A stretch of 64,000 nucleotides of DNA from Edaphobacter dinghuensis (GTDB lineage Bacteria; Acidobacteriota; Terriglobia; Terriglobales; Acidobacteriaceae): positions 992,001 through 1,056,000 of the forward strand of contig NZ_BMGT01000002.1 of the NCBI RefSeq assembly GCF_014640335.1, in the 5' to 3' direction. A program made the translations under genes and the position numbers. Positions 44,366 to 57,532 of the stretch are shown piece after piece; within the stretch, counting starts at the first letter, position 1; the number at the start of each line of letters is the position of its first letter. The notes beneath the pieces were generated by a model, which worked only from the letters and a program-made list of their open reading frames with translations, did no database searches and was not told the origin of the DNA.

Positions 44366-45127
44366 TCAATACAACAGCACAGCCACCCGATACGTAGTGA
44401 ACCCCTGTCCCGCCTGTGCACTCGGACACGCCCCCACCGCAGCCGACTGATAGCTGCCCTGCGATATCCGCTGCGCTACCACATCCGGCAACTGCCCCGG
44501 ATTCGACCCCTCCCAATGCACCACCAGCTTTGCACCCGGCGACGCATTGCTCTGGCTCTCGCAGTTCGACCGCGCCGCCTCTGTCATCTTCACCGAACTT
44601 ATGCCTGCTCTCTGCAGAGCGCCCATTACCTGGCCTTCAATCACACCACGCCTCGGCGTTGGAACGCTCTGCGCAAAATCCTCCACCGCATACAGCAGTC
44701 CATCACTCTCGATCACACCGATCCCTACAACATTCATCTTCGGGTCGAGGAGATTTGCACGATGAGTCGGTGTAATCATCCAGATCTGTTGCAACTGCGC
44801 CGCAGTCTGTCCCCTGCCCGCCAGGTTCTCGGCAACCGCACTGAAGTGCGCTCCCTCCTCTGCCGCACGCGCAATCATGTCCGGCTCCCCTGGATACTGA
44901 TGCTCCAAATCTCCGTCCGCCGAGACCATCAGCCGCGCATGCTTGCGCGCCGCACGCGCCAGCTCACCGTTCCACGTCAGCGGAGGCACGCCATGCGCAG
45001 CGCGAAACTGGTTCGCCATTTGCAGCAGCGCCCTCTCCGCAGGCGACGCATCGGCCTGCGCCCTCCCCACAGACGCCGTCACCACAACACAGAACAAGAC
45101 AGCCAACGATCGTCGAATCGCACCCAC
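44366..45127 (-). CDS. Secreted CAP/SCP-domain protein
   Basis: The 253-residue protein has a signal peptide (RRSLAVLFCVVVTASVGRAQA) and a CAP domain of the bacterial YkwD type: ALLQMANQFRAAHGVPPLTWNGELARAARKHARLM, then AENLAGRG and WMITPTHRANLLDPKMNVVGIGV with the conserved His/Glu residues. A roughly 100-residue C-terminal part with two cysteines (SNCESQ, GACPS) is unassigned. The start is a GTG at 45127 with AAGGAGG 5 nt upstream; an ATG at 45151 would lie before that Shine-Dalgarno. Confidence 0.88.
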   Translation of the reverse strand: MGAIRRSLAVLFCVVVTASVGRAQADASPAERALLQMANQFRAAHGVPPLTWNGELARAARKHARLMVSADGDLEHQYPGEPDMIARAAEEGAHFSAVAENLAGRGQTAAQLQQIWMITPTHRANLLDPKMNVVGIGVIESDGLLYAVEDFAQSVPTPRRGVIEGQVMGALQRAGISSVKMTEAARSNCESQSNASPGAKLVVHWEGSNPGQLPDVVAQRISQGSYQSAAVGACPSAQAGQGFTTYRVAVLLY

Positions 45128-45230
45128 AGGGGCCTCCTTACAAGCTTGCATCTCTGCCGCAAACTTGCTGCAGCCTGCTGTAAGCGTAATCTCCCTTCCG
45201 CCTGAAGCGCATCTCTCCTCAACATCTACC

Positions 45231-45267
45231 CTATGTAGTATACTATTTTAAGTAGTTCACTACATAG
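45231..45267 (+). promoter_or_regulatory. Operator-like inverted repeat with -10 box, ABC exporter 1
   Basis: CTATGTAGT (45231-45239) and ACTACATAG (45259-45267) form a perfect 9-bp inverted repeat. TATACT (45239-45244), a near-consensus -10 box, lies inside. Read on the minus strand, the right arm gives CTATGTAGT-N5-ACTTA, also found upstream of the second exporter (57502-57524). It is a likely repressor site of GntR (YtrA-type) or PadR class; no such regulator is encoded in the window. Confidence 0.65.
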
Positions 45268-45287
45268 TTAAGCAGCGAGGAAGACTC

Positions 45288-46061
45288 ATGCTGGAACTGA
45301 GAGACGTATCGAAGAGTTATCGCAGCATTCCCGCAGTGCAGGATGTCAGCTTCACCCTCAAAGCGGGCGAGATTCTGGGCTACCTCGGGCCCAATGGATC
45401 AGGAAAATCAACCACCGTGAAGATGGTGATCGGCATGATTCAACCGAGCAAGGGAAAGGTCTTCTTTGCAGGAAAGAATATTCATGACGATCTCGCCTCC
45501 TATCGCGCACAACTTGGCTACGTGCCCGAGGAGGCGCAAGTCTACAACCATCTCTCCGGGCTGGAGTACCTGCAACTGGTAGGCCGCCTACGCGGCATGC
45601 AGGAGAAGCTCATCGAACGCAAAGCGCGCGAGCTGCTTCATCTCCTGTCGCTCGAAGCGGCGCAGTACTCCGCGCTCTCCGACTACTCCAAGGGAATGAA
45701 GCAGCGCGTGCTCATCGCCGCCGCGCTGTTACACGATCCCCGGCTCATCGTCTTCGACGAGCCCCTCTCCGGCCTTGATGCCACCTCCGCACGCCTCTTC
45801 AAAGACCTTCTCGGCCTGCTCGCACGCGAAGGCAAGGCGATCCTCTACATCTCGCATGTGATGGAAGTCGTCGAGCGCGTATGCAATCGCGTCATCGTGC
45901 TGGCCAAGGGTAAAGTCGTCGCCGATGCTGCACCCGACGATCTCACCCGGTTGATGGAGCTGCCCACGCTTGAGAGCGTCTTCGCTCAACTCGTGCAGCA
46001 GACCGACACCGCGCGGGTCGCGCAGCAGATGGTGGAAGTCATGAAGGTGCACCATGCCTAA
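45288..46061 (+). CDS. ABC-2 exporter 1, ATP-binding protein
   Basis: The 257-residue ATPase has Walker A GPNGSGKSTT, LGYVPEEAQVYNHLSGLEYL, a modified signature YSKGMKQRVLIAAALLHDP (SKGM in place of LSGG, common in ABC-2/CcmA-type ATPases) and Walker B LIVFDEPLSGLDA. GAGGAAG precedes the ATG. Its last 8 nt overlap the permease gene. A paralogue with the same layout lies at 56721-57485. The substrate is unknown; antibiotic, lipid or peptide export is typical of the class. Confidence 0.9.
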   Translation: MLELRDVSKSYRSIPAVQDVSFTLKAGEILGYLGPNGSGKSTTVKMVIGMIQPSKGKVFFAGKNIHDDLASYRAQLGYVPEEAQVYNHLSGLEYLQLVGRLRGMQEKLIERKARELLHLLSLEAAQYSALSDYSKGMKQRVLIAAALLHDPRLIVFDEPLSGLDATSARLFKDLLGLLAREGKAILYISHVMEVVERVCNRVIVLAKGKVVADAAPDDLTRLMELPTLESVFAQLVQQTDTARVAQQMVEVMKVHHA

Positions 46062-47748
46062 GAAAAATAACGTAACTAGCGTCCTGATCGTCCACTTCTT
46101 CCGCCGCTTCTTCGACAACGACACCATCCAGGTTGACGGCGACACGCTGACCACCGTTGTGCGCGCCATCTCCGTCGTCGCCATCCCCGGCCTCATGGTC
46201 GCCTTCTTTCTGCAAAACCAATATCCACGCAGGTCCCTGTGGGGATCGATCGAAGACCAATATTTCTTCGTGCTGTTTTCATTCATCGTCATGGGCGCGG
46301 TATCCATCTTCGAATGGGAGATGCTCTTCCCCGACCGCCAGGACTTCCTCATTCTTTCGCCACTCTCTTTGAAGCCAAAACAGATGCTCACCGCAAAAGC
46401 GGCCGCGCTGATCGCATTTCTGGGGCTGTTTCTGGTGAGTTGCAATCTGTTCGGGACGCTGGTTCTGCCTGCGGTTACGCGACACTTCGTAACGGTGAAT
46501 GGCCACTTGACGGTGCAGGTAGATTTCTACCGGCAGGTCTATGCCCACGGAGCAGCCGTATTCATGGCAGGCATCTTTGCCGCAACATTCTTTCTTGCGC
46601 TTGGCGGCGTTCTACTCTGCGTGCTCGGTGCCGCACGTTTCCGCATGGTCTCGCCCATCATGCAGATGCTCTCCATCACGGCGCTGGCGTTGATGCTGAT
46701 GCAATACGCTCAGTTTGGCGACTCCATGCAGGCACTATTATCGAAGCCGCTTGGAGCAATGCGCTGGATGCCGCCACTCTGGTTTCTCGGCATCTACGAG
46801 CAGCTCCTGCACGGAGACGCCGCACCTGCATTCGCACGCGAGATGTCGCGCTTCGCCATCCGTGGAACAGCAATCGCAGTAGCAGTCACGCTGCTGACCT
46901 ATCCCCTCGCATGGGCAAGAATGCGCAGAATGGCCATCGAAGGCATATCGAGCAAACGGCGGAAGCCATCGCGCTGGCTCGCTGCGCTTATTCACAGCAT
47001 CGTTCGACGTCCGGGCGAGCGCGCCGTATTTCACTTCATCGGACAGACCATCGCCCGCAACAACCGCTACCAGATCTATCTCGCCATGTACGGCGGAACC
47101 GGCCTCGCTCTGGCCATAGCATGCGCAGTTACCTATCCCGTCATCGGCGACAGCATCCACCCTGCCCTCTCGAACAAAGGCCTGCATGCAGTAATGCCCC
47201 TGCTCTTGTTCTGGGTGATTGCCGGTCTGCGAACCGCCTTTGCCTTTCCTCTGAATCTCGCCGCAAGATGGGTCTTTCGCATCACCGGCGTCAACCTGGG
47301 CGAATGCACCGCTGCGGCGCACCGTTGGGTGCTCCTATGTGCGACCGGTGTCGCTATGTTCATCGTAGTCGCACTGCACTTCGCAGGCTGGGATACACGA
47401 CAACTTCTGGTGCAGGCAGTATGCGGACTATGCCTTTGCATCCTTCTGACCGACGGCTTCTTCTTCTTCCTGCAAAGCGTGCCGTTCAATCAACCCAGAA
47501 TGCCGGGCAGAACTAGCTTTCCTCTTATGCTGACGCTTTACGTGGGAGTACTTCCACCGTTCATCTTCGGCGTGATTTATACCGAGATGCAGATGGAAAG
47601 AAATCTCGGAAAGCTTCTGCTCCTGACAATCATCACCGCAGCAATTCACGTTGCCTTGCAAAACCTCCGCAAAGGATACGAAGAGATCGAGGAAGAGATG
47701 GAGGGATACGACGGCGAGTTTCAACTACTCGGCCTGAGTTGGAGATAG
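46054..47748 (+). CDS. ABC-2 exporter 1, large permease
   Basis: The 564-residue protein has about 12 hydrophobic segments. It includes FEWEMLFPDRQDFLILSPLSLKPKQMLTAKAAALIAFLG near residue 90, a motif shared with the permease at 54986 (FPDRGDVLVLAPLPVR...RAKLSALIAALS), which shows that the two are paralogues. It overlaps the ATPase gene by 8 nt and so is translationally coupled. It resembles large ABC-2 permeases common in Acidobacteria. No substrate clue is visible. Confidence 0.85.
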   Translation: MPKKNNVTSVLIVHFFRRFFDNDTIQVDGDTLTTVVRAISVVAIPGLMVAFFLQNQYPRRSLWGSIEDQYFFVLFSFIVMGAVSIFEWEMLFPDRQDFLILSPLSLKPKQMLTAKAAALIAFLGLFLVSCNLFGTLVLPAVTRHFVTVNGHLTVQVDFYRQVYAHGAAVFMAGIFAATFFLALGGVLLCVLGAARFRMVSPIMQMLSITALALMLMQYAQFGDSMQALLSKPLGAMRWMPPLWFLGIYEQLLHGDAAPAFAREMSRFAIRGTAIAVAVTLLTYPLAWARMRRMAIEGISSKRRKPSRWLAALIHSIVRRPGERAVFHFIGQTIARNNRYQIYLAMYGGTGLALAIACAVTYPVIGDSIHPALSNKGLHAVMPLLLFWVIAGLRTAFAFPLNLAARWVFRITGVNLGECTAAAHRWVLLCATGVAMFIVVALHFAGWDTRQLLVQAVCGLCLCILLTDGFFFFLQSVPFNQPRMPGRTSFPLMLTLYVGVLPPFIFGVIYTEMQMERNLGKLLLLTIITAAIHVALQNLRKGYEEIEEEMEGYDGEFQLLGLSWR

Positions 47749-48048
47749 CAACCTCGCCAGCCACTCCCTCAAAGTCCATTCGACTCGAGTACCCCCAACT
47801 AACGTCACCCCACCTCGCTCCTGAATCACGTCACCCCACCCCTAACTCACGTCATCTCGACCGAAGCCGTGCAGTTTCATCGCACGGCGCAGCGGAGAGA
47901 CCCCTGTATTTCGTCTTTGCCGTTGTCTTTGCCTGTTCTCTTCTTTCCACCAATGGAACGCAGCTTCTTACACTTTTGAAGACGCTACTTACCGTAACCC
48001 CAGCCCCCGCATCCCACCCTGAGCCACCGGATTTACAATCGGTATGCC
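47749..48048. repeat. Intergenic repeat region with dispersed repeat copy C
   Basis: This 300-nt stretch has no credible gene. ACGTCACCCCACC occurs at 47802-47814 and 47828-47840, and a related ACGTCATCTCGACC starts at 47849. Positions 47849-47933 are copy C of the dispersed hairpin repeat: ACGTCATC, a GCCGTGC/GCACGGC stem (47866-47888), and a tail CTGTATTTCGTCTTTGCCGTTG nearly identical to copy A (14985-15060). The last 100 nt before yacG look unstructured. Confidence 0.6.
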
Positions 48049-48261
48049 ATGTCAAAAGCGCTCTTCTGCCCCACATGCCGCAAAGTAGTTCTCGCCACCG
48101 ATCCCGACTTCCCCTTTTGCTCCGACCGCTGCCGCATCCTCGACCTCGGCAAATGGGCGAGCGGCGACTACAAGATCTCCACCCCTGTCCAGGACCCCGA
48201 CGACCTCGAAGAGCTGGCCCGTTCCAAAACGCACCGTCCCAACTCCGGCGACGAAGACTAA
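48049..48261 (+). CDS. yacG: YacG-type zinc protein (DNA gyrase inhibitor family)
   Basis: The 70-residue protein carries the YacG zinc site: CPTCRKVV near residue 8 and CSDRCRILDLGKWASGDYKI. In E. coli YacG binds and inhibits GyrB. Length and motif order are typical, followed by an acidic tail. It stands alone after a repeat-rich spacer. Confidence 0.93.
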   Translation: MSKALFCPTCRKVVLATDPDFPFCSDRCRILDLGKWASGDYKISTPVQDPDDLEELARSKTHRPNSGDED

Positions 48262-48308
48262 AGCGTGTCACAAAGTTTGCATCAGATATGCGGTCAACGG
48301 CGAGAACA

Positions 48309-49109
48309 TCAGTTCTCGGTAGGTTGGCGATTCATCTTGTCCACGACGACGACCTTCGATGGAACTTTCGCGCCTTGAAGACGCAGCCCCAACTGCTCCC
48401 TCAGCGCGGTAAATACTGAAGCAGGCAGATTATCGACATCGATTCCGTATTGCTTCCCATATCGCTGCTGCGCGGCCAGTTCAGCAGCATCCGACGATCT
48501 CCACATCAATTTGAAATCGAATCCACCCGAAAGGTGCGTTGCATCAACCACGGGCTTTCCCAGTACCTGTTCCAGCGCCTTCGCAAGCTCTGACATCGAC
48601 ATATTGGTGCCGCTAATCAACGTAGGGCCGGAGCTCGTTCCATGGCGGCCTTCCATCCGTTCCAGCATGCCCGCGGGTTGGGCCAGTACCTTCTTCTCAG
48701 TAACCAACTCATAGCCGGATACGCTCTGGGACTCCTCGTGCCATTTCAATCCAAATCGTTCGATCAGGAGCGCTTTCATCATTTCGACCAAATCTTTCTG
48801 GTCGACCGGGCCGCTGGGCAGTTCTGCATTCAGATCAAACTTGGAGCTATCAAGCCACGAAGGAGCCTTCAGATCATAATCACTAACCGATAGCCCCATC
48901 TTCACCCACTGCTTTAGAGGCACATTCAACATCCGAAACTGCCTCCCGGATGAGCCGGTCCACGACGACACCGAATCGGGGTTACCCGGCCTGATGGCAG
49001 CCACTTCAAACTGTAAAGGCTTTATCTGTTGCGGCTGCTGTGCGGTAGAGATGCTCGCCGAAAAGACCAATACCGCCGCGAAACCAGCCAGAGCTACTCG
49101 CCTCATCAT
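48309..49109 (-). CDS. Secreted TIGR03435-family soil-associated protein
   Basis: The 266-residue protein has a signal peptide (MMRRVALAGFAAVLVFSASISTAQ) and the TIGR03435/DUF3738 pattern: FEVAAIRPGNP near the start of the mature part, RQFRMLNVPLKQWVKMGL, FDLNAELPSG, LVEMMKALLIERFGLKWHEESQSVSGYELV and a C-terminal FTALREQLGLRLQGAKVPSKVVVVDKM. The family is expanded in Acidobacteria and Planctomycetes; its role is unknown. GGAGGAG upstream supports the ATG at 49109 (or 49106). Confidence 0.92.
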   Translation of the reverse strand: MMRRVALAGFAAVLVFSASISTAQQPQQIKPLQFEVAAIRPGNPDSVSSWTGSSGRQFRMLNVPLKQWVKMGLSVSDYDLKAPSWLDSSKFDLNAELPSGPVDQKDLVEMMKALLIERFGLKWHEESQSVSGYELVTEKKVLAQPAGMLERMEGRHGTSSGPTLISGTNMSMSELAKALEQVLGKPVVDATHLSGGFDFKLMWRSSDAAELAAQQRYGKQYGIDVDNLPASVFTALREQLGLRLQGAKVPSKVVVVDKMNRQPTEN

Positions 49110-49437
49110 CCGGCTCCTCCAAACAATTATCAAAAGCAGGCTCTTAGCCCATCACAGGAATCTGAACGGACCAAGTGCAATAGTTTGCCCTCATCATCCT
49201 AAGCTGCTCCTGGCCCCATCTGTTGAAGCGGTTACAAAACACCGCACTGCCTTAGCATCTAAAAAATAAGTGCGCTCTATGATCGGACAAGTCACTTGGA
49301 ATCAAGACTTTGTCGACAAAATGACGACTTTGGCGAGACCTCGCATACCTAACTCCCCTAAAATGAAGACTTTGGGTACTTAGTAGGGGAGGGGGAGGTA
49401 CTTCCACACCCCACCGCTAAACTAAACTCTGAACGAC
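49110..49437. other. Intergenic region with a G-rich inverted repeat
   Basis: No gene is apparent in these 328 nt. Near its right end CTCCCCTA (about 49354) and TAGGGGAG (about 49384) form an 8-bp inverted repeat, followed by a G-rich run ending GGTACT. Two GACTTTGG-type words (about 49329 and 49368) repeat within it. It may be another intergenic repeat element and also carry the pgpA promoter. Confidence 0.4.
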
Positions 49438-49947
49438 ATGGCCAACTCCAACATCCAACTTCATCCACCTTCCAAAAAGAAAACCCTTTGGGCCTGGACA
49501 ATCGGCACTTTTTTCGGAGCCGGCCTGCTCAAACCCGGTCCCGGAACTTACGGCTCCATCGCCGCCGTCCTTCTCTGGTTCATCGCCGCCCATATCTTCC
49601 CTGTCACCAGCCTTTCGTTGACCATCGGCACCATCATCGCAGCCATTGTCGTCACGCTGATCGGCATTCCAGCCGCGACCATCGTAGCTCGCGAATCCGG
49701 CCGCGAAGATCCCGGACACGTCGTTATCGATGAGGTCGCCGGCCAGCTCATCGCCCTCATCGCCATCCCCGCCGATTGGCGGCACGCCGCTCTGAGCCTG
49801 CTGCTCTTCCGCCTCTTCGATATCCTCAAGCCTCCGCCCATTCGCCAGCTCGAACGCCTCCCTGAAGGCACAGGCATCATGCTCGACGACGTAGCCGCAG
49901 GCATTCTGGCTCTCATTGTCGCCCAACTGGCGCACCTATTCTTCTAG
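49438..49947 (+). CDS. pgpA: Phosphatidylglycerophosphatase A
   Basis: PgpA dephosphorylates phosphatidylglycerophosphate to phosphatidylglycerol in the inner membrane. The 169-residue protein has WTIGTFFGAGLLKPGPGTYGS, then DPGHVVIDEVAGQLIAL (the conserved acidic VIDEVxG site) and LLFRLFDILKPPPIRQLE, with four hydrophobic segments. All are family-typical. Confidence 0.94.
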   Translation: MANSNIQLHPPSKKKTLWAWTIGTFFGAGLLKPGPGTYGSIAAVLLWFIAAHIFPVTSLSLTIGTIIAAIVVTLIGIPAATIVARESGREDPGHVVIDEVAGQLIALIAIPADWRHAALSLLLFRLFDILKPPPIRQLERLPEGTGIMLDDVAAGILALIVAQLAHLFF

Positions 49948-49987
49948 CCTTGCACTCCCTCACCGCAACGCATACCGTAAATAGTCA

Positions 49988-51040
49988 ATGAGCCTCTTTC
50001 ATCCCCATGCCGACGCGCCACACCTCCAACTCGTCACTCCACCTGCAGCCATGCCCGGCGGAGAAGCCGAGGTCCACGGCAGCAATCTAGGCCCAGCCTC
50101 GCACGTTATTCCCAGCGCCACCATCGGCGACACCAGCGCTGCGGTCATTCTCAGCCGCCCCACACGCGCCACCGTGCGCATTCCTGATGGCACCATCACC
50201 GGCGACCTTGTCCTGCACCGCAACGGAGCCTCCAGCAACCCGCTGAACCTCCGCATCGCTGTGCCTATGGCCGAAAACCTGCATCCTGTGTCCAACCCGG
50301 CAGTCGATGCGGAAGGCAACGTCTACGCCACGCTCTCCGGCTCCCGCGGCCAGGAGACGCCTGTCTCCATCTTCCGCATCCAGCGCGACTTCCAGATGAC
50401 GCCCTTCGTCCGTGGCCTGCTCAATCCGACCGGCCTGGCCTTCTCTCCCGACGGCTACCTCTACGCCAGCTCCCGCGCCGAGGGCACCGTCTACCGCATC
50501 TCTCCCGAAGGCGCGATCTCCACCTACGCCGAAGGCATGGGCATCGCCACCGGCATCGCCTTCGACGGCGACGGCAACCTCTTCGTCGGCGACCGCTCGG
50601 GCACTATCTTCAAAATCGCCCGCGGAGATGCGCAGGGCAGCAGTGGCGAAATCTTCGTCTACGCCACGCTCGAGCCAAGTATGGCTGCCTACCACCTCGC
50701 CTTCAACGATGCCGGAACACTCTTCGTCACCGGCCCTACCACCAGCAGCAATCAAGCCGTCCACGCCATCGATCGCGACGGCAACACGACCGTCTTCTAT
50801 CGAGGCCTCGGCCGCGCTCAGGGCATGGCCTTCGACGTAGACGACAATCTCTACGTCGCTGCCAGCCTGCATGGCCAGCGCGGAATCATCCGCATCACGC
50901 CACAGCGCGAGGCCAGTCTCGCCGTCTCCGGGCAGAACCTCGTAGGCCTCGCCTTCCTCGAAGACGGTTGCGCGGCTTTGGCTACCCGCGACGCTCTTTA
51001 CCATGTAGCGCTCGACATCGAAGGCCGTCCGCTCATCTAA
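49988..51040 (+). CDS. IPT/TIG-like plus NHL/SMP-30-type beta-propeller protein
   Basis: The 350-residue protein begins with an Ig-like IPT/TIG segment (residues 10-90, VTPPAAMPGGEAEVHGSNLGP). It continues with a six-bladed propeller built from NHL/gluconolactonase-like repeats (LNPTGLAFSPDGYLYASSRAEGTVYRISPEG, GIATGIAFDGDGNLFVGDRSGTIFKIA, RAQGMAFDVDDNLYVAASLHGQRGIIRITP). I see no signal peptide, which is unusual because this combination is mostly extracytoplasmic. A sugar-lactone or binding role is possible, but no catalytic site is obvious. Confidence 0.8.
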   Translation: MSLFHPHADAPHLQLVTPPAAMPGGEAEVHGSNLGPASHVIPSATIGDTSAAVILSRPTRATVRIPDGTITGDLVLHRNGASSNPLNLRIAVPMAENLHPVSNPAVDAEGNVYATLSGSRGQETPVSIFRIQRDFQMTPFVRGLLNPTGLAFSPDGYLYASSRAEGTVYRISPEGAISTYAEGMGIATGIAFDGDGNLFVGDRSGTIFKIARGDAQGSSGEIFVYATLEPSMAAYHLAFNDAGTLFVTGPTTSSNQAVHAIDRDGNTTVFYRGLGRAQGMAFDVDDNLYVAASLHGQRGIIRITPQREASLAVSGQNLVGLAFLEDGCAALATRDALYHVALDIEGRPLI

Positions 51041-51081
51041 TCCGGCGACTTCTCCGACAAAGGTCTTGAAAATCAATACGA

Positions 51082-51113
51082 CTTGGGTCAATTTGTTTTT
51101 ACTTTGAACCAAG
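51082..51113. promoter_or_regulatory. Inverted repeat upstream of the Gfo/Idh/MocA gene
   Basis: CTTGGGTCAA and TTGAACCAAG (9 of 10 pairs) flank a 12-nt T-rich spacer, about 90 nt before the GTG start. There is no T-run afterwards, so it looks like an operator rather than a terminator. Confidence 0.45.
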
Positions 51114-51201
51114 CACCCTCGCTCGTGTAAAGTTATCCCGCGACCGAAGGGCGCCTAAACGGCCATCGTCTGCTATCAGTAATAACTCCCAAGGAGGAGA
51201 T

Positions 51202-52521
51202 GTGATCTCTCGACGTGAATTTCTCGACAGTCTTGCAGTAGGAGCAGCGGGCCTCGCTGTAAGCTCTACCGCAAAAAGCTATGCTCAGATTCTCGGTGCT
51301 AACGACCGGCTTAATTTTGCCGTAATCGGCCTTCATAGCCGCGCTTACGCTCACCTTGCTTCGCTCAAGGCAAACGAGAAGCACGCAAGGATTACCCACG
51401 TCTGCGACGTCGATAGCAACACCCTCAAGAAGTTCGCAGGGGCCGTCCAGCAGAAGTTTGGCGATGCACCTATCGCTGATAAAGACTTCCGCAAGACCCT
51501 CGCCTCCAAAGACGTGGACGCCATCACCATCGCCACGCCCGATCACTGGCACACTCCCATGGCCATCCTCGGACTTCAGGCCGGCAAACACGTTTACGTC
51601 GAGAAGCCTTGCAGCCACAATCCCGCCGAAGGCGCGCTGCTCGTCGAGGCCCAGCGCAAGTATGGCAAAAAAGTCCAGATGGGCACACAACGACGCTCTT
51701 CCCCCATCTACATCGATGTCGTCCAGAAGATCCACGAGGGTCTCGTCGGCCGCGCCTATTACGGCAAAGCCTGGTACAGCAACACCCGCAAGTCCATCGG
51801 TGTAGGCAAGCCCGCGCCCGTTCCCGCAGTTCTCGATTGGGATCTTTGGCAGGGCCCCGCGCCGCGCCAGCCCTACAAGGACAACGTTCAACCCTACAAC
51901 TGGCACTGGTTCAAGATCTGGGGCACAGGCGAGGCCCTCAACAACGGAACCCATGAAGTGGACGTATGTCGCTGGGCGCTCGGAGTCGACCTTCCCAACC
52001 GCATCACCGCGGCAGGTGGACGTTATCAGTTCAAGGACGACTGGCAGTTCTACGACACCCTCGACACCAGCTTCGAATACGATGACAAGCTGATCTCCTG
52101 GCAGGACCAAAGCTGCAACGGCATGAAGCTCTACAATCGCGACCGTGGCGCGGTCATCGTCGGCACCACCGGCAGCGTCATCCTCGATCCCGCAGGCTAT
52201 GAGGTCTATGACCTCAACGGCAAGAAGATCAACGAGGTCGCAGAAGGCAAGGCAGCCGCCTCGTCCGATCTCACCGGGGCCGACCACATGACCGACCTTC
52301 ACTTCGCCAACTTCATCGCCGCCATCCGCACCGGAGAAAAGCTCAATCAGCCTATCGACTCCGGCAACATCTCCGTCACCATGCTGCAACTCTCCAACAT
52401 TGCGTGGGAGATGAAGCGCGAACTGCACCTCAACCCGCAGAACGGCCACATCCTCAACGACCCTGAAGCGATGAAGCTATGGGGCCGCGAGTACGAAAAG
52501 GGCTGGGCTCCGCACCTCTAA
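51202..52521 (+). CDS. Tat-exported Gfo/Idh/MocA-family oxidoreductase
   Basis: The 439-residue protein starts with a twin-arginine signal (SRREFLDSLAVGAAGLAVSS), so it is probably exported folded with bound NAD(P). The Rossmann domain includes FAVIGLHSRAYAHL, VCDVDSNTLKKFAG and the EKPCSHN motif (catalytic Lys region), followed by the C-terminal alpha/beta dimerisation domain (residues 150-430). Substrates are usually sugars or inositols; none is indicated here. The start is GTG at 51202 with AAGGAGGAG just upstream. It is monocistronic, ended by a strong hairpin. Confidence 0.9.
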   Translation: MISRREFLDSLAVGAAGLAVSSTAKSYAQILGANDRLNFAVIGLHSRAYAHLASLKANEKHARITHVCDVDSNTLKKFAGAVQQKFGDAPIADKDFRKTLASKDVDAITIATPDHWHTPMAILGLQAGKHVYVEKPCSHNPAEGALLVEAQRKYGKKVQMGTQRRSSPIYIDVVQKIHEGLVGRAYYGKAWYSNTRKSIGVGKPAPVPAVLDWDLWQGPAPRQPYKDNVQPYNWHWFKIWGTGEALNNGTHEVDVCRWALGVDLPNRITAAGGRYQFKDDWQFYDTLDTSFEYDDKLISWQDQSCNGMKLYNRDRGAVIVGTTGSVILDPAGYEVYDLNGKKINEVAEGKAAASSDLTGADHMTDLHFANFIAAIRTGEKLNQPIDSGNISVTMLQLSNIAWEMKRELHLNPQNGHILNDPEAMKLWGREYEKGWAPHL

Positions 52522-52531
52522 CCGGCGACAA

Positions 52532-52560
52532 CGGCGCGGTCGCACTCAGCGACCGTGCCG
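52532..52560 (+). terminator. Terminator after the Gfo/Idh/MocA gene
   Basis: A 12-bp GC-rich stem (CGGCGCGGTCGC with GCGACCGTGCCG, one G-T) and a 5-nt loop are followed by CTTTATTTCT, 10 nt after the stop. Confidence 0.85.
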
Positions 52561-52583
52561 CTTTATTTCTCCTTGTGCTAAAA

Positions 52584-52606
52584 TTTAGAGACCGTTTGGT
52601 TCTAAA
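52584..52606 (+). promoter_or_regulatory. TetR operator, site 1 (autoregulation)
   Basis: TTTAGA-G-ACC-GTTT-GGT-TCTAAA is an almost perfect palindrome 42 nt upstream of the TetR start. It shares AGAGACCG-N-TTGGT with site 2 in front of the MFS gene, so the regulator probably represses both. Confidence 0.7.
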
Positions 52607-52648
52607 TCGAACGTCATCGTCACTGGAGTTCAGCTCCAAGGATTTTGA

Positions 52649-53260
52649 ATGAGTAAAGGCGAAGAAACTCGGCTGCGCATCGTCGCTGAGGCCGCCCCGC
52701 TCTTCAATCAGCGCGGCTATGAGGGCTGCTCCATTCAGGACATCATGGACGCCACCGGCCTTGAAAAAGGCGGGATCTATCGCCACTTTGAAAGCAAGGA
52801 AGAGCTCGCGGCGGAGGCATTCGACTTTGCCTGGGCATTGGCCTTCAGCAAGCGCAGGCAAAATCTCGACTCCATTCGCAATCCAATCGATCGCTTGAAG
52901 CAGCACGTTGCAAACTTCGTCTTGCGCTCTACCTTCCCCGGTGGCTGCCCTCTTCTCAATACAGCAATTGACTCCGATAACGGCAATCCCATTCTGAGAG
53001 AAAAGGTCCGTAAAGCCCTTCGCGACTGGCAAACCATGCTCCAGGACATCCTCAAAGAAGGAATTCGCGAAGGATGCATCCGGCAAGATATAGATATCAA
53101 TAAAGTTGCCAGCATTATCGTGGGCGGACTCGAAGGTGGCATGCTGATCAGCCGCATCGAACGCAACGATCAGGCCTTACACGCCACACTGGAGCACCTC
53201 GACGCATATATCGAATCTCAGCTCCGACGAACCTCCAAAACCTCACAAAAAAATCGCTAA
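52649..53260 (+). CDS. TetR-family regulator of the adjacent MFS exporter
   Basis: The 203-residue protein has the TetR HTH (RLRIVAEAAPLFNQRGYEGCSIQDIMDATGLEKGGIYRHFESKEELA). Its C-terminal ligand-binding domain contains GGCPLLNTAIDSDNGNPILREKV, similar to the LmrA/YxaF-like branch that controls drug exporters. AAGGA precedes the ATG. It lies 85 nt upstream of the MFS gene, and matching palindromes lie before both genes. Confidence 0.92.
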   Translation: MSKGEETRLRIVAEAAPLFNQRGYEGCSIQDIMDATGLEKGGIYRHFESKEELAAEAFDFAWALAFSKRRQNLDSIRNPIDRLKQHVANFVLRSTFPGGCPLLNTAIDSDNGNPILREKVRKALRDWQTMLQDILKEGIREGCIRQDIDINKVASIIVGGLEGGMLISRIERNDQALHATLEHLDAYIESQLRRTSKTSQKNR

Positions 53261-53298
53261 TTTATTCACGCATCCTTGTGCCTCCTCTTGCCTCTAAT

Positions 53299-53316
53299 AG
53301 AGACCGATTGGTTTCT
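53299..53316 (+). promoter_or_regulatory. TetR operator, site 2 (MFS gene)
   Basis: AGA-G-ACC-GATT-GGT-T-TCT is a symmetric palindrome 29 nt before the MFS start codon. It matches site 1 at AGAGACCG and TTGGT. Confidence 0.7.
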
Positions 53317-53345
53317 TTTATCTCAACTCTGCGTGAGAGGCAATC

Positions 53346-54959
53346 TTGGCAACCCTTACACTCCCGGCTCCCCCTCAGATAGCCACCAAGCGCGCCATCA
53401 ACCCTTGGGTGATTGCTCTCACGGTCACCCTGGCAACCTTCATGGAGTTGCTCGACACCTCCATTGCAAACGTCTCGCTGCCTTACATTGCAGGCGGACT
53501 GGGTCGCAGCTTCGACGAGGTGACGTGGATTCTCACGACGTATCTTGTCGCCAACGCCGTCATCCTTCCCATGAGTGCATGGCTTAGCCGCGTCTTCGGT
53601 CGCAAGAACTATTACATGGCCTGCGTCGCTCTCTTCACAATCACTTCTCTTTTCTGCGGCATCGCTCCCACGCTCGGCGTCATGCTCGTCAGCCGCGTAC
53701 TTCAGGGTATCGGCGGAGGCGGACTGGCGCCGGTCGAACAAGCCATCCTCGTGGATACCTTCCCTCCAGCACAGCGCGCCTCTGCCTTCGCGCTCTATAC
53801 GGTTGCCATCGTTACTGCTCCTGCCATCGGTCCCGTCCTTGGAGGTTGGATCACCGACAACTTCAACTGGCGCTGGGTCTTCTTCATTAATATTCCCATC
53901 GGCGCGCTCTCACTCTTTCTTACCAGCCGCTTCGTCCACGATCCCCCCTCATTTGCGGAGGAGCGCAAATCAGCGCGTCGCAGCGGCAAGCTTCGCATCG
54001 ACACGCTTGGCATCATCCTGATCGGCATAGGCTCCGCCGCACTCGAAATTGTGCTCGACCGCGGCCAGATCGACGATTGGTTCGGCAGCAACTTCATCGC
54101 ATGGACGTTCGTTATTGCGCTGATCTGCTGGTCAATCGCCATCTATTGGGAGCTGCAGCACGATGACCCAATCATCGACCTCCATCTGCTCGCCAATCGA
54201 AACTTCCTGATCGCTTCTACCCTCTACTTCATCTTTGGCTTCGGACTCTTCGCCAGTACCACCATGATTCCGCAGGTGCTGCAATCACTCTACGGATACC
54301 GCGCCATCGATGCCGGCCTCGTCCTCGGACCAGGAGCCTTTGTCATCACGCTGCTCGCTCCCGTAGGCGCTCAATTGATACAACGCGGCATCATTCATCC
54401 GCGTGTCCTGGTTGCCATCAGCCTTGTGACCGTATCTGCCTCGATGCTTTACTACAGCGGCTTTACTTTGCAGACAGACTACAGTCACTACGCACTGGCA
54501 CGCGCCTTTCAAGGCCTCGGCTATGCCTTCTTCTTCGTTCCTGTCAGCGTCATCGCATACTCGCAACTCAAGCCCAATCAAAACAACCGGGCATCGAGTC
54601 TCACCAATCTCTTTCGCAATTGGGGCGGCAGTTTTGGAATCGCCTTCATCACTACCGTCAGCGAACGCAGACAAAACTTTCATCAATCCGTGATGGGTGC
54701 GAATCTTACTCCCAGTTCTCCGGGGCTACAGGAATACGTTCACAGGACAGCGGCCTATCTCGCCCAGCATGGTTATTCGCAAGCAGACTCTGTGAAGGCG
54801 GCGTACCTCTATTACTACTCTCAGCTTGAACAGCAGACTCGACTACTGGGCTTCATGGACTGCTTCCGTGTTATCGGCTGGATAACTTTGGCGATGGTGC
54901 CGCTCGTCTTCCTCATCCGCCACTTCCATGTCAGCGGCAAACCCTCCGGCGGCCACTAA
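53346..54959 (+). CDS. DHA2-family multidrug MFS transporter (EmrB/QacA type)
   Basis: The 537-residue protein has about 14 transmembrane helices. Landmarks of the 14-TM drug:H+ antiporters are MELLDTSIANVSLPYIAGGLG (motif D1), WLSRVFGRKNYYMACVALF (motif A), RVLQGIGGGGLAPVEQAILVDTFPPAQRASAFALY (motif B) and GPVLGGWITDNFNWRWVFFINIPIG (motif C). The start is TTG at 53346 with GAGAGG about 7 nt upstream; the next Met lies at residue 32 within the first helix. It is probably induced when the TetR ligand is present. A partner EmrA-type adaptor is absent. Confidence 0.92.
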   Translation: MATLTLPAPPQIATKRAINPWVIALTVTLATFMELLDTSIANVSLPYIAGGLGRSFDEVTWILTTYLVANAVILPMSAWLSRVFGRKNYYMACVALFTITSLFCGIAPTLGVMLVSRVLQGIGGGGLAPVEQAILVDTFPPAQRASAFALYTVAIVTAPAIGPVLGGWITDNFNWRWVFFINIPIGALSLFLTSRFVHDPPSFAEERKSARRSGKLRIDTLGIILIGIGSAALEIVLDRGQIDDWFGSNFIAWTFVIALICWSIAIYWELQHDDPIIDLHLLANRNFLIASTLYFIFGFGLFASTTMIPQVLQSLYGYRAIDAGLVLGPGAFVITLLAPVGAQLIQRGIIHPRVLVAISLVTVSASMLYYSGFTLQTDYSHYALARAFQGLGYAFFFVPVSVIAYSQLKPNQNNRASSLTNLFRNWGGSFGIAFITTVSERRQNFHQSVMGANLTPSSPGLQEYVHRTAAYLAQHGYSQADSVKAAYLYYYSQLEQQTRLLGFMDCFRVIGWITLAMVPLVFLIRHFHVSGKPSGGH

Positions 54960-54985
54960 ACCGACCGCAGAGGTTTGCCTATCCT

Positions 54986-56728
54986 TCAAAGAGATTTCGG
55001 GGAAGCACCTGCAACATTCGAACGTGTAAGTGGCGCTCCCATATTGCGCAGCAGATTCAGACTAAATAGCTCAGGCGGATACTCTTCTTCAAAGATCAGC
55101 CCTTCGACCGATGCCGCCGAAGCTGTGGTGCGCCACCGCGCACATGCCGCTATCAATATGAGCAAAATGGCGATGCCAATGAAATCGAGAGGCCTACTCA
55201 GGATTCGCATCTCGAATCGTGCAGCGACAAGTGGCACCCACACGAGAAGGCAACCCCAGAACACGACGTGCACCTTTGATTGACCCGGCAGATAAGAACA
55301 CGTGAATGGAAGTTTGTGAAAGCCGTACAAGCTAAGCTCGACAACGATCATTCCCACCAGTGCGAGCAAAAAGAGATGGCCGACGATCCGCCATGTCGGC
55401 CAGCGAAGAAGAAACAGAATGGCCATCAACAGCCACGCCGGTATCGCAGCCAGCACGAAGAATGCTCGCCGGATGGCCGATAGATAGGCGGTTGCACCAC
55501 GAATCTCGGTTATACGAAAGATCCAGTTTGCCCGCAGCGTAAGCGGCATGGAGATCACAAGCCTGACTCCCATAATCGCAAAACACATGATCCAGATGCT
55601 GGCTACGAGAAACGTGGCATTGACTGCATCCCCGGCAGTTCCGTGCAGCAGCTTCAATACCCTGAGGGATGTTCCTAAATACGCCAGTACGATGGCGAAT
55701 GTAGCGCCTAGATAAAAGGAGAGCAGCATCCGATGTTGCCTGCTGCGCAGCAGCGTCCGGACGCTGAACAGCACGACCGCAGTTTGCAGCAATGTTCCGA
55801 ATCGCAGAGGCAAGTTGACTCGTCTGCCCCCTGGCGCGATGTCGGGTGTTTCGATAATCTTGCCCATCACGCGGAAATACGCGAGGAGAACAGATATCGC
55901 GCCGACGACAGTCGCAACCGCTATCCCAACCCATGCTCGCCTCGCCAGTGGCGCAAACGCGGGCAGCATCGATCCGTTGAGTTGCTGAAACAATCCCAAA
56001 AACCAATAGGATGGCAGCCACGCAAGCAGCCGCTGGTTCTCCGGCGCAACCAGGGCTTTAGGCGCTTCTAATGAAGGCTCGATGATGTAGACGGTAGTGA
56101 AGAGAAAGAATAAGAACACCTGTAATAGCGCGGACAAGCGCAGAAATTGCGCGCGCGGCAGTAGCTGTGAGGTAATCCCCTGTATCCCCAAAACACAGCC
56201 GAATACAAATGTTGCTGCCAGCAACATCGTCGCCCAATAGGCGACCAGCGAGTGGAGCATACCGAGGTATCCACCACCGTTGGTCGCAGAAAACATCTTC
56301 GGCCAGACAAGACCCGAGATGCAGTTTAGAGAAAGCACCGAGAGGCTCAGCGCCGCGATCAACGCTGATAATTTTGCCCGAAACAGCGTGCTCACACGCA
56401 CAGGCAACGGAGCCAATACCAGCACATCGCCGCGGTCGGGAAAGATGGATTCCCAGCACAGCACCGAGAACAGGCCGACCACCAGCATCGTAGTCGCAAT
56501 CAGAAAGTGCTCCATCACCCAAAGGAAGTCTGGCGAAAATCTTCCGCCGGCAAAGATCAACCAAAAGGTAAATAGATAGCTGATTCCAGCAAACAGCGCC
56601 GCAAATTGACCGAGCAGTCTTGTAGTATCCGCATCGGCCGACAACAATTCCAAATCGACCACACGCAGCAGAAACGCCTTATAAAGTATGCGGAATTGGC
56701 GCTTCTCGATATTGACGGGCTTATGCAT
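54986..56728 (-). CDS. ABC-2 exporter 2, large permease
   Basis: The 580-residue protein has about 12 hydrophobic segments and shares FPDRGDVLVLAPLPVR...RAKLSALIAALS with the permease at 46054 (FPDRQDFLILSPLSLK). I chose the ATG at 56728 (MHKPVNIEKRQFRILYKAF); it overlaps the ATPase stop by 8 nt, exactly as in exporter 1. A longer frame to 56803 lies inside the ATPase gene. The gene converges on the MFS gene with 26 nt between stops. Confidence 0.85.
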   Translation of the reverse strand: MHKPVNIEKRQFRILYKAFLLRVVDLELLSADADTTRLLGQFAALFAGISYLFTFWLIFAGGRFSPDFLWVMEHFLIATTMLVVGLFSVLCWESIFPDRGDVLVLAPLPVRVSTLFRAKLSALIAALSLSVLSLNCISGLVWPKMFSATNGGGYLGMLHSLVAYWATMLLAATFVFGCVLGIQGITSQLLPRAQFLRLSALLQVFLFFLFTTVYIIEPSLEAPKALVAPENQRLLAWLPSYWFLGLFQQLNGSMLPAFAPLARRAWVGIAVATVVGAISVLLAYFRVMGKIIETPDIAPGGRRVNLPLRFGTLLQTAVVLFSVRTLLRSRQHRMLLSFYLGATFAIVLAYLGTSLRVLKLLHGTAGDAVNATFLVASIWIMCFAIMGVRLVISMPLTLRANWIFRITEIRGATAYLSAIRRAFFVLAAIPAWLLMAILFLLRWPTWRIVGHLFLLALVGMIVVELSLYGFHKLPFTCSYLPGQSKVHVVFWGCLLVWVPLVAARFEMRILSRPLDFIGIAILLILIAACARWRTTASAASVEGLIFEEEYPPELFSLNLLRNMGAPLTRSNVAGASPKSL

Positions 56729-57485
56729 AAATAAGGTCCGCAATCTGCTTTGAAATTGCTTCTGTATTTTGTTCGACTGCAAGCTGCGAGAAGATTCCCT
56801 CAAGCGTCGGCAGCGACATCAGCGCCCGCAGCCGCTCAATCGAATCGTCGGCCACAATTTTGCCGCGATGCAGAATCACAATATGCGAAGAGATCTTCTC
56901 CACCGTCTCCAACTCATGCGAGCTGAAGAGCACGACCTTCCCTCGCCGCGCAAGCTCCTCAATCAAGCTACGCAGGATCAGCGAAGAACCAACATCGAGT
57001 CCGGAGAAAGGTTCATCCAGCAGGATAAGATCAGGATTATGCAGCAGTGCCGCCGCCAGCAATATCTTCTGCCGCATGCCCTTCGAGTACGCCGAAATCC
57101 CTACGTGCCGGTCATCGTAGAGCGCAAACAACCGCAACAACCCATCAATCCGTTCGGTTGCGAGCTTCCGCGCAAGATTACGCAGTTGCGCAACCATTAC
57201 CAGGTATTCAGCCCCGCTCAGATGCGTATACAGATAAGGCTCTTCCGGCACATACCCCATTCGCTGCTTGTAGGCCATCAGGTCGGCATGAATCGGCCTG
57301 CCGTCAAAGAGTATCGAGCCCGAGTTCGTCGCAATCAGGCCTGTAATCATCTTCATCGTGGTGGATTTGCCGGAGCCATTTGGGCCGAGATAGCCCGTCA
57401 CCTCTCCAGGCCGCGCACAAAAGCTTACGTTCTCGACGGCTGGAATACTGGAGTAATGCTTGGAGACGTTTCGGATTTCGAGCAT
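56721..57485 (-). CDS. ABC-2 exporter 2, ATP-binding protein
   Basis: The 254-residue ATPase has Walker A GPNGSGKSTT, MGYVPEEPYLYTHLSGAEYL, the signature YSKGMRQKILLAAALLHNP and Walker [13 protein letters not shown], closely matching the exporter 1 ATPase (both start MLE-R-VSK-Y-SIPAV). The ATG at 57485 is chosen because this conserved start matches; an upstream extension to 57545 covers the operator. It forms a two-gene operon with the permease. Confidence 0.9.
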   Translation of the reverse strand: MLEIRNVSKHYSSIPAVENVSFCARPGEVTGYLGPNGSGKSTTMKMITGLIATNSGSILFDGRPIHADLMAYKQRMGYVPEEPYLYTHLSGAEYLVMVAQLRNLARKLATERIDGLLRLFALYDDRHVGISAYSKGMRQKILLAAALLHNPDLILLDEPFSGLDVGSSLILRSLIEELARRGKVVLFSSHELETVEKISSHIVILHRGKIVADDSIERLRALMSLPTLEGIFSQLAVEQNTEAISKQIADLIYA

Positions 57486-57501
57486 AGGAAGCACCTGCAC
57501 C

Positions 57502-57532
57502 CTATGTAGTTCAATACTTATTAGATTGTCAA
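57502..57532 (-). promoter_or_regulatory. Promoter and operator-like site, ABC exporter 2
   Basis: On the plus strand CTATGTAGT-tcaat-ACTTATTAG (57502-57524) repeats the motif found upstream of exporter 1. A perfect TTGACA -35 box reads on the minus strand at 57532-57527, so a repressor bound here would cover the promoter. Confidence 0.65.

Follow-up and report, generated by a model that had tools for sequence, protein, structure and literature searches.

The window analysed here is a 64,000-nucleotide stretch of the 4.54-Mb Edaphobacter dinghuensis genome (G000:C2:992001-1056000; positions given without a contig are window positions), and it encodes two ABC-2-like exporters, termed A (45288-47748, +) and B (54986-57485, -). 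Comparison of genomes suggests, with a probability that we put at roughly 0.85, that a single PadR, an orphan encoded on the same contig, represses both exporters in trans as parts of one dispersed regulon. An earlier note on this DNA had proposed, from a motif shared by the two promoters, that a single repressor of the GntR or PadR type acts on both from outside the window: the single trans-acting repressor is supported by the comparative genomics, and of the two candidate families PadR fits and GntR does not.

Exporter A consists of an ATPase (type A; 45288-46061, +; PF00005, 107 bits) and a permease (46054-47748, +), and exporter B of an ATPase (type B; 56721-57485, -; PF00005, 105.5 bits) and a permease (54986-56728, -) homologous to permease A. 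The two operons have the same gene order and an 8-nt ATPase/permease overlap each, and their kinship held when the permeases were aligned: the ATPases are 48% identical over 252 residues and the permeases 25% over 509, so that the exporters are homologous, yet not the product of a recent duplication. The shared motif, CTATGTAGT-N5-ACTTA, has two exact copies in the window, at 57502-57520 (+) and 45249-45267 (-); allowing two mismatches brought in a single further place, the other arm of site A (45231). At exporter A, the inverted repeat CTATGTAGT...ACTACATAG was confirmed (45231-45267). This bidirectional operator (CTATGTAGTATACTATTTTAAGTAGTTCACTACATAG, 45231-45267, kept in the sister genome G178) is composed of a right unit at 45251-45267 (+), which is an exact AGTAKNNNRCTACATAG, and a left unit at 45231-45247 (-) with one mismatch. 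The operator of exporter B (AGTATTGAACTACATAG, 57502-57518, -; AGTAGTGAGCTACATAG at the orthologous place in G178) overlaps part of the spacer and the -10 of a promoter-like sequence recognised by consensus only (57503-57532, -; TTGACA at 57527-57532, as previously noted, an 18-bp spacer and TACATA at 57503-57508).

The whole genome was scanned for the operator. Exact AGTAKNNNRCTACATAG occurs five times and its reversed form not at all, with 0.03-0.06 occurrences expected by chance per genome, and random occurrence without a link to ABC operons was not seen. The five places are the promoters of the PadR gene, of exporter A and of exporter B, and sites at C2:430105 and C1:793281; each operator lies 13-23 bp before a start codon and faces its gene (18 and 23 bp for the last two sites). 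The gene at C2:430140 encodes a 951-residue CarboxypepD_reg and outer-membrane barrel protein, and the gene at C1:793257 a TIGR03435/DUF3738 protein. At both, TTGACG or TTGACA stands 18 bp before TACATA, as at exporter B; for the TACATA of sites A and PadR, no -35 of the TTGACG/TTGACA type was seen. A first, too symmetric version of the motif, GTAGTNNACTAC, was discarded: with up to one mismatch it gave 53 sites against 128 of its reversed form in G000, and was thus rarer than the control.

The candidate regulator is a PadR of 105 residues (G000:C2:658411-658728, -; locus L076), 379-391 kb from exporters A and B and 379 kb from operator A, with CTATGTAGCACACTACTTGACTAG directly upstream and no adjoining exporter. 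It matches PF03551 at 44.7 bits (cut-off 27), its profile matched 41 PDB sequences at E <= 0.01, most of them named PadR-like, and its nearest named relatives come from Granulicella, Edaphobacter and other Acidobacteriaceae. The genome's nine GntR and 17 PadR Pfam matches all lie outside the window, in agreement with the earlier note. Among the 17, the L076 gene alone carries the operator at its own promoter, and it is the only PadR of the exporter-linked type found in the genome.

ABC exporters are controlled by GntR/YtrA as well as by PadR regulators, and with so many matches of the two families in the genome a different regulator (GntR/YtrA, BlaI/CopY or another PadR) might read the motif. 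We consider this very unlikely, since among these matches the operator precedes the gene of one PadR only, the one whose relatives are linked to these exporters; BlaI was not searched for. The nine GntR matches are all away from the five operators and outside the window, and the operator stands at the promoter of no PadR other than that of L076. One other PadR (L071, ADOP type, G000:C1:787820), ~5 kb from the TIGR03435 site, speaks for the different regulator and against the L076 protein. A different inverted repeat, TTTTCCATAGGC...GCCTATGGAAAA, is found just upstream of the L071 gene, as if the genome's many PadRs each had their own operators.

The link between this type of PadR and these exporters was established from other Acidobacteriota. 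A search of 60 genomes of the family with permease A gave matches in 12, the own genome included, and at 7 of the 12 relatives' loci (L042-L047 and L052, of L042-L053) a gene of one PadR type lies on the opposite strand; the five intergenic regions compared (L043, L045-L047, L052) all contain CTATGTAG and CTACATAG. A profile built from eight such PadRs retrieved 201 relatives from the genome collection, of which the best 80 were used for locus counts. A type A or B exporter is linked to the PadR in 72 of these 80 loci: 64 have a divergent adjacent ATPase (52 type A, 12 type B), two have a divergent exporter farther away, five have a same-direction exporter behind a membrane protein gene, and one has a permease match only. 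The remaining eight have none; four of these have less than 400 bp of contig upstream and one has 9 bp downstream. The membrane protein was matched at 78 of the 80 loci, and CTACATAG lies within 160 nt upstream of PadR at 76. Aligned PadR-side promoters (76 sequences) read cttGTCAAGTAGa.TgCTACATAGgTa.aat and exporter-side promoters (71 sequences) tTgac...TGCTACATAGGG, lower case denoting under 75%, which places the operator over the spacer and -10 box. In many of the L092-L171 intergenic regions, a single CTTGTCAAG block seems to provide overlapping -35 boxes for both of the divergent promoters. At L144:1880-1926, a second facing pair of operator-like sites lies ~1.3 kb from the PadR, beside an apparent second PadR start.

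Both exporters of the window have close kin in such cassettes. The counterpart of operator A is the intergenic region between the divergent PadR and exporter genes of G064 and G099, the PadR being missing at A. The exporter A ATPase has its closest relatives in the PadR-linked exporters of these two genomes, to whose ATPases it is 79-81% identical (the G064 PadR match contains one in-frame TGA). The best relatives of the exporter B ATPase are 72-81% identical and in their majority PadR-linked, and permease B shares ~40-50% identity with PadR-linked type-B permeases. At L117 and L122 (the latter at a contig end), exporters of both types are lined up next to one PadR, so that their joint control is probably found outside the window as well; at L151, partial B-type matches adjoin the A exporter.

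As an independent test, a 20-base matrix anchored on CTACATAG was made from the 80 PadR loci only and was run over the window. Its top three positions were the left unit of site A, the right unit of site A and site B, at 28.6, 20.7 and 16.9 bits; the fourth position scored 6.1 bits, and the best of 20 first-order random 64-kb sequences 15.4. The PadR-facing matrix on its own scored site B at 16.2 bits against a random best of 13.6.

The operators also follow the PadR from genome to genome. In 150 genomes of the family, exact AGTAKNNNRCTACATAG was found at 20 places in 13 genomes (reversed control, 4), and the PadR is present in 11 of these 13 genomes against 18 of the 137 others (Fisher 1.4e-7). 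Within the genus, the PadR is present in 25 of 62 genomes. A loose pattern, GTAN5CTACATAG, gave 57 sites in the genomes with PadR, covering 25/25 of them (reversed control, 25 sites), and 8 sites in 7 of the 37 without it (reversed control, 33); the association has a Fisher value of 2.4e-11, which overstates independence because the genomes are related. In G150, a type A exporter lies divergent from the PadR, and an exact operator faces a type B exporter located on another contig. In G169 too, a type B exporter and the PadR are on different contigs; the operator of this exporter has two units, of which the exact one faces away and the ATPase-facing one has one mismatch. Distant TIGR03435 proteins (28-33%) begin within ~350 bp downstream of an operator in G194 and G197.

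Further support comes from G178, in which five operators lie at the five orthologous genes (identities: PadR/membrane protein 91/89%, exporter A 96/87%, exporter B 95/84%, barrel protein 91%, TIGR03435 protein 85%). The G178 operators keep 60 of 60 fixed bases, whereas the aligned flanks keep 344 of 523 columns (66%); the sites were found by pattern, which favours kept bases, yet all five orthologues have one.

These data bear on two further explanations. Since the ATPases of A and B are homologous, and CTACATAG gives a TACATA -10 with TTGAC(A/G) 18 bp upstream at three of the five sites, the shared motif might be promoter sequence with an unusual -10 region, inherited by two homologous operons that have no common regulator. 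Such an origin seems very improbable: the operator also precedes unrelated genes (PadR, barrel protein, TIGR03435), the conserved part includes the GTA outside the -10, the sites track the presence of the PadR across genomes, and the fixed bases persist in G178 while the flanks drift. Alternatively, the PadR could be an activator, or mainly a local repressor whose scattered operator copies are decaying, functionless leftovers; exporters A and B look like broken-up cassettes, for which leftover operators would be expected for a time. This, too, we rate as hardly probable, as all five operators keep every fixed base in G178 with spacer and flanks changed, and G178 site B is even closer to the consensus (GTAGT, not GTATT).

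Several observations weigh against such a PadR regulon. The first concern the pattern itself. With up to two mismatches, AGTAKNNNRCTACATAG is not enriched in the genome (32 places against 67 reversed), and it was written after three of the own sites were known, so that only two finds in the genome are independent; the external matrix and G178 answer this objection in part. The exporter-facing matrix alone gave site B 15.8 bits, below the best random score of 19.3. The left half-site at A, B and PadR is AAGT (AAGT-N8-ACAT), one base off the canonical ATGT, the ACAT half being exact. Among the 80 PadR loci, exact AGTAKNNNRCTACATAG is present at only 40 and A.GT-N8-ACAT at 56; the full ATGT-N8-ACAT is present at 8. 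The loose pattern is not enriched over all 62 genomes (65 sites against 58 reversed), and the evidence is therefore its association with PadR, not the raw count. The 20 exact sites of the family comprise 13 at PadR genes, four other sites of the own genome, two in predicted open reading frames of genomes without PadR, and a lone one in G128. At 8 of 20 further loci (L338, L341, L346, L347, L350-L353), a loose-pattern site has no query gene near it; some of these are probably chance.

Other points concern the gene pairs. The PadR loci L130, L145 and L164 are without an exporter and are not explained by contig ends, and 4 of the 29 PadR loci in the 150 family genomes (own, G004, G042, G134) have no exporter within 1.5 kb. 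In G042, whose PadR is on another contig, the type B exporter has no operator in the stretch read; the same holds, in the stretch read, for the type B exporter of G034, which has no PadR. Not every exporter of type A or B thus belongs to the scheme.

Two of the sites just mentioned may mark additional genes. The exact operator at G128:C1:5939333 (L251, ~9334) stands, with TTGACG-N18-TACATA, before the gene of a small, apparently secreted protein without Pfam match, and this gene, far from that genome's PadR, is possibly another trans target. The loose-pattern site at L347 ~6727 (G150:C1:749726) lies ~1 bp before an ATG followed by a signal-peptide-like stretch, and is likewise a possible target.

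From the positions, conservation, genomic associations and gene orders observed, we infer the following course of binding, repression and release. A PadR dimer would bind AAGTA-N5-CTACATAG, a form of the PadR-type ATGT-N8-ACAT dyad, would cover the spacer and -10 box and would block transcription of five units: exporter A, exporter B, the outer-membrane barrel protein, the TIGR03435 protein and the PadR's own operon. The signal would probably be an exporter substrate or envelope stress, felt by the PadR itself or through the MacB-like membrane protein encoded behind it; release of the PadR would then switch on the five units together. What began as two short motifs would thereby extend to a candidate regulator that can be named, to its operator and to a regulon of five units kept in two species.

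Such a regulon may have arisen by the breaking up of compact PadR/exporter cassettes, exporters A and B having lost their adjacent PadR and kept their operators, and the exporter beside the L076 PadR having disappeared except for its promoter and first codons, which would now be fused to the barrel gene. The barrel protein starts with MLELQKLTKPY, an ABC-ATPase-like sequence (cf. MLELRDVSKSY) ahead of its signal peptide (first 11 codons; L203:7141-9996), and over its first 17 nt the own barrel gene is identical to the beginning of the ATPase gene at L138; the G178 orthologue starts less ATPase-like, with MLESQIPLKPS. At 4 of the 80 PadR loci (L138, L103, L101, L142), the permease gene is immediately followed, on the same strand, by a barrel gene of 57-69% identity. 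The simplest reading is that the barrel gene marks the remnant of a deleted cassette, in which an in-frame deletion would have joined the first codons of the ATPase to the barrel gene and removed the PadR's exporter. Among 30 barrel loci examined from a longer list, an operator within 1.5 kb upstream was found only at the own one; G178 has it in addition.

For exporter A, the ATPase forms a clade of three rows with those of G064 and G099 (support 100), and the PadRs of these two genomes are 56-57% identical to the own PadR. The PadR trees, from one of which the long branches L043 and L052 were dropped and from the other L052, cannot reject a grouping of the own PadR with those of G064 and G099 (p-AU 0.51; 0.36 with the membrane protein), which also counts against the proposed history. 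These trees being too short, the presumed loss of a different PadR by exporter A rests on 56-57% against 86% identity and on gene order. If the breaking up of cassettes holds, a compact divergent repressor/exporter cassette can scatter into a trans-acting regulon with its operators surviving.

The gene of the membrane protein (506 residues) follows the PadR gene with a 4-nt overlap. A structure model of a relative (from L098; pLDDT 83) matches MacB (E 3.7e-10) and has a MacB-type periplasmic domain between helices, its last 60 residues being poorly modelled. Invariant or nearly invariant residues lie in an N-terminal W...W..E helix (EWxxEWxxEL) and in a CPxC...C..GH end. Several relatives, found mostly with type B exporters, are far shorter and lack a match to the periplasmic part. 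The C-terminal part was found in 34 of the 150 family genomes, 28 of them with PadR (PadR itself in 29 of 150), and this tracking is the ground for supposing, tentatively, that the protein might be a transmembrane receptor for the PadR: the half-MacB periplasmic domain would sense the substrate or the state of the envelope, and the cytosolic EWxxEWxxEL helix and zinc-ribbon-like end would capture or release the PadR. If so, a one-component repressor would have become a membrane-signalling pair, with several exporters, an outer-membrane barrel and the pair itself under its control in trans, and such a membrane-coupled PadR pair is now directly testable.

The assignment of the permeases relies on a predicted fold. 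Searches of Pfam, NCBIfam and PDB sequences gave no match for permease A, and all 38 permeases in its alignment lack a Pfam hit at E <= 0.01, so that no curated ABC-2 permease family applies. Its model (pLDDT 87.7) has a predicted tandem ABC-2/ABCG-like fold: residues 5-292 match ABCG1 with Z 16.4 (243 aligned, 4.4 Å; VIA-align 2), and the model matches the mycobacterial efflux pump 8k1o/8k1p with Z 12.1-12.5 over 413-436 residues (8k1o: Z 12.5 over 426 residues, 6.2 Å), where a VIA-align 2 Z under ~13 can reflect a common arrangement of helical bundles. Chains of NosY, KpsM and Wzm were matched as well, sequence identity in the fold matches being ~5-11%; Foldseek alone gave permease A no match under E 0.001. 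With the pump matched at Z values below ~13, the function is kept at exporter and no substrate is assigned. An ABC ATPase with an ABC-2-fold permease, the fold being predicted and not solved, places the system among ABC-2 or type V exporters. Relatives of permease A were absent among 72,556 plasmid records.

Around the exporters, a CAP-domain protein gene (44366-45151, -; PF00188) faces the left half of operator A; gene and left half-site are both retained in G178, and the gene is possibly a further target. Between exporters A and B, a TetR gene and an EmrB-type MFS efflux gene (TIGR00711) occupy 52649-54959, which makes three efflux systems within ~12 kb. The exact PadR operator is restricted in the window to exporters A and B.

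Among known systems, the nearest is LmrR-LmrCD of Lactococcus lactis. The own PadR profile matches PDB entries 3f8b and 3f8c, which we take to be LmrR, at E 1.1e-9 and 1.3e-9. As there, a small PadR-fold regulator would act on an ABC exporter and on its own gene, through a dyad resembling ATGT/ACAT with halves 8-10 bp apart. Published work describes PadR operators with ATGT/ACAT 8-10 bp apart and the autoregulated control of an ABC drug exporter by PadR (PMC3506622, PMC4534193, PMC5428041), with which the 8-bp spacing found here agrees, as does the dyad apart from one base in its left half. LmrCD is a heterodimeric ABC transporter, whereas each exporter here has a single ABC ATPase and a separate tandem ABC-2-like permease, and is no such heterodimer. 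Also unlike LmrR-LmrCD, five separate units are apparently read in trans, and a MacB-like membrane protein gene lies behind the PadR gene.

The PadR adjoining a MacB-like permease resembles the ADOP/PadR systems of Acidobacteria (TIGR03433, TIGR03434). The scores fall far below the curated cut-offs of those families (PadR against TIGR03433, 43 bits, cut-off 101.8; membrane protein against TIGR03434, 60.2 bits, cut-off 622.3), and, unlike in ADOP, the companion here is a single unit of half size that has a Cys/His-rich end, with an ABC-2-like exporter as the partner of the PadR. The predicted fold of permease A is that of type V/ABC-2 exporters (ABCG family; NosFY; Wzm/Wzt; 8k1o/8k1p), from which it differs in having no sequence match. 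PadR/DUF1700 pairs are similarly reported to link a PadR repressor with trans-membrane proteins (PMC6624303), but the companion here has no DUF1700 match in Pfam. In the titles and abstract beginnings of the open-licence literature, no paper on such a PadR regulon in Acidobacteriota was found. Because the PadR dyad and autoregulated exporter control have already been published, the kind of system is known; what is new is the proposed dispersal of the regulon, read in trans, along with the exporter family and the MacB-like partner.

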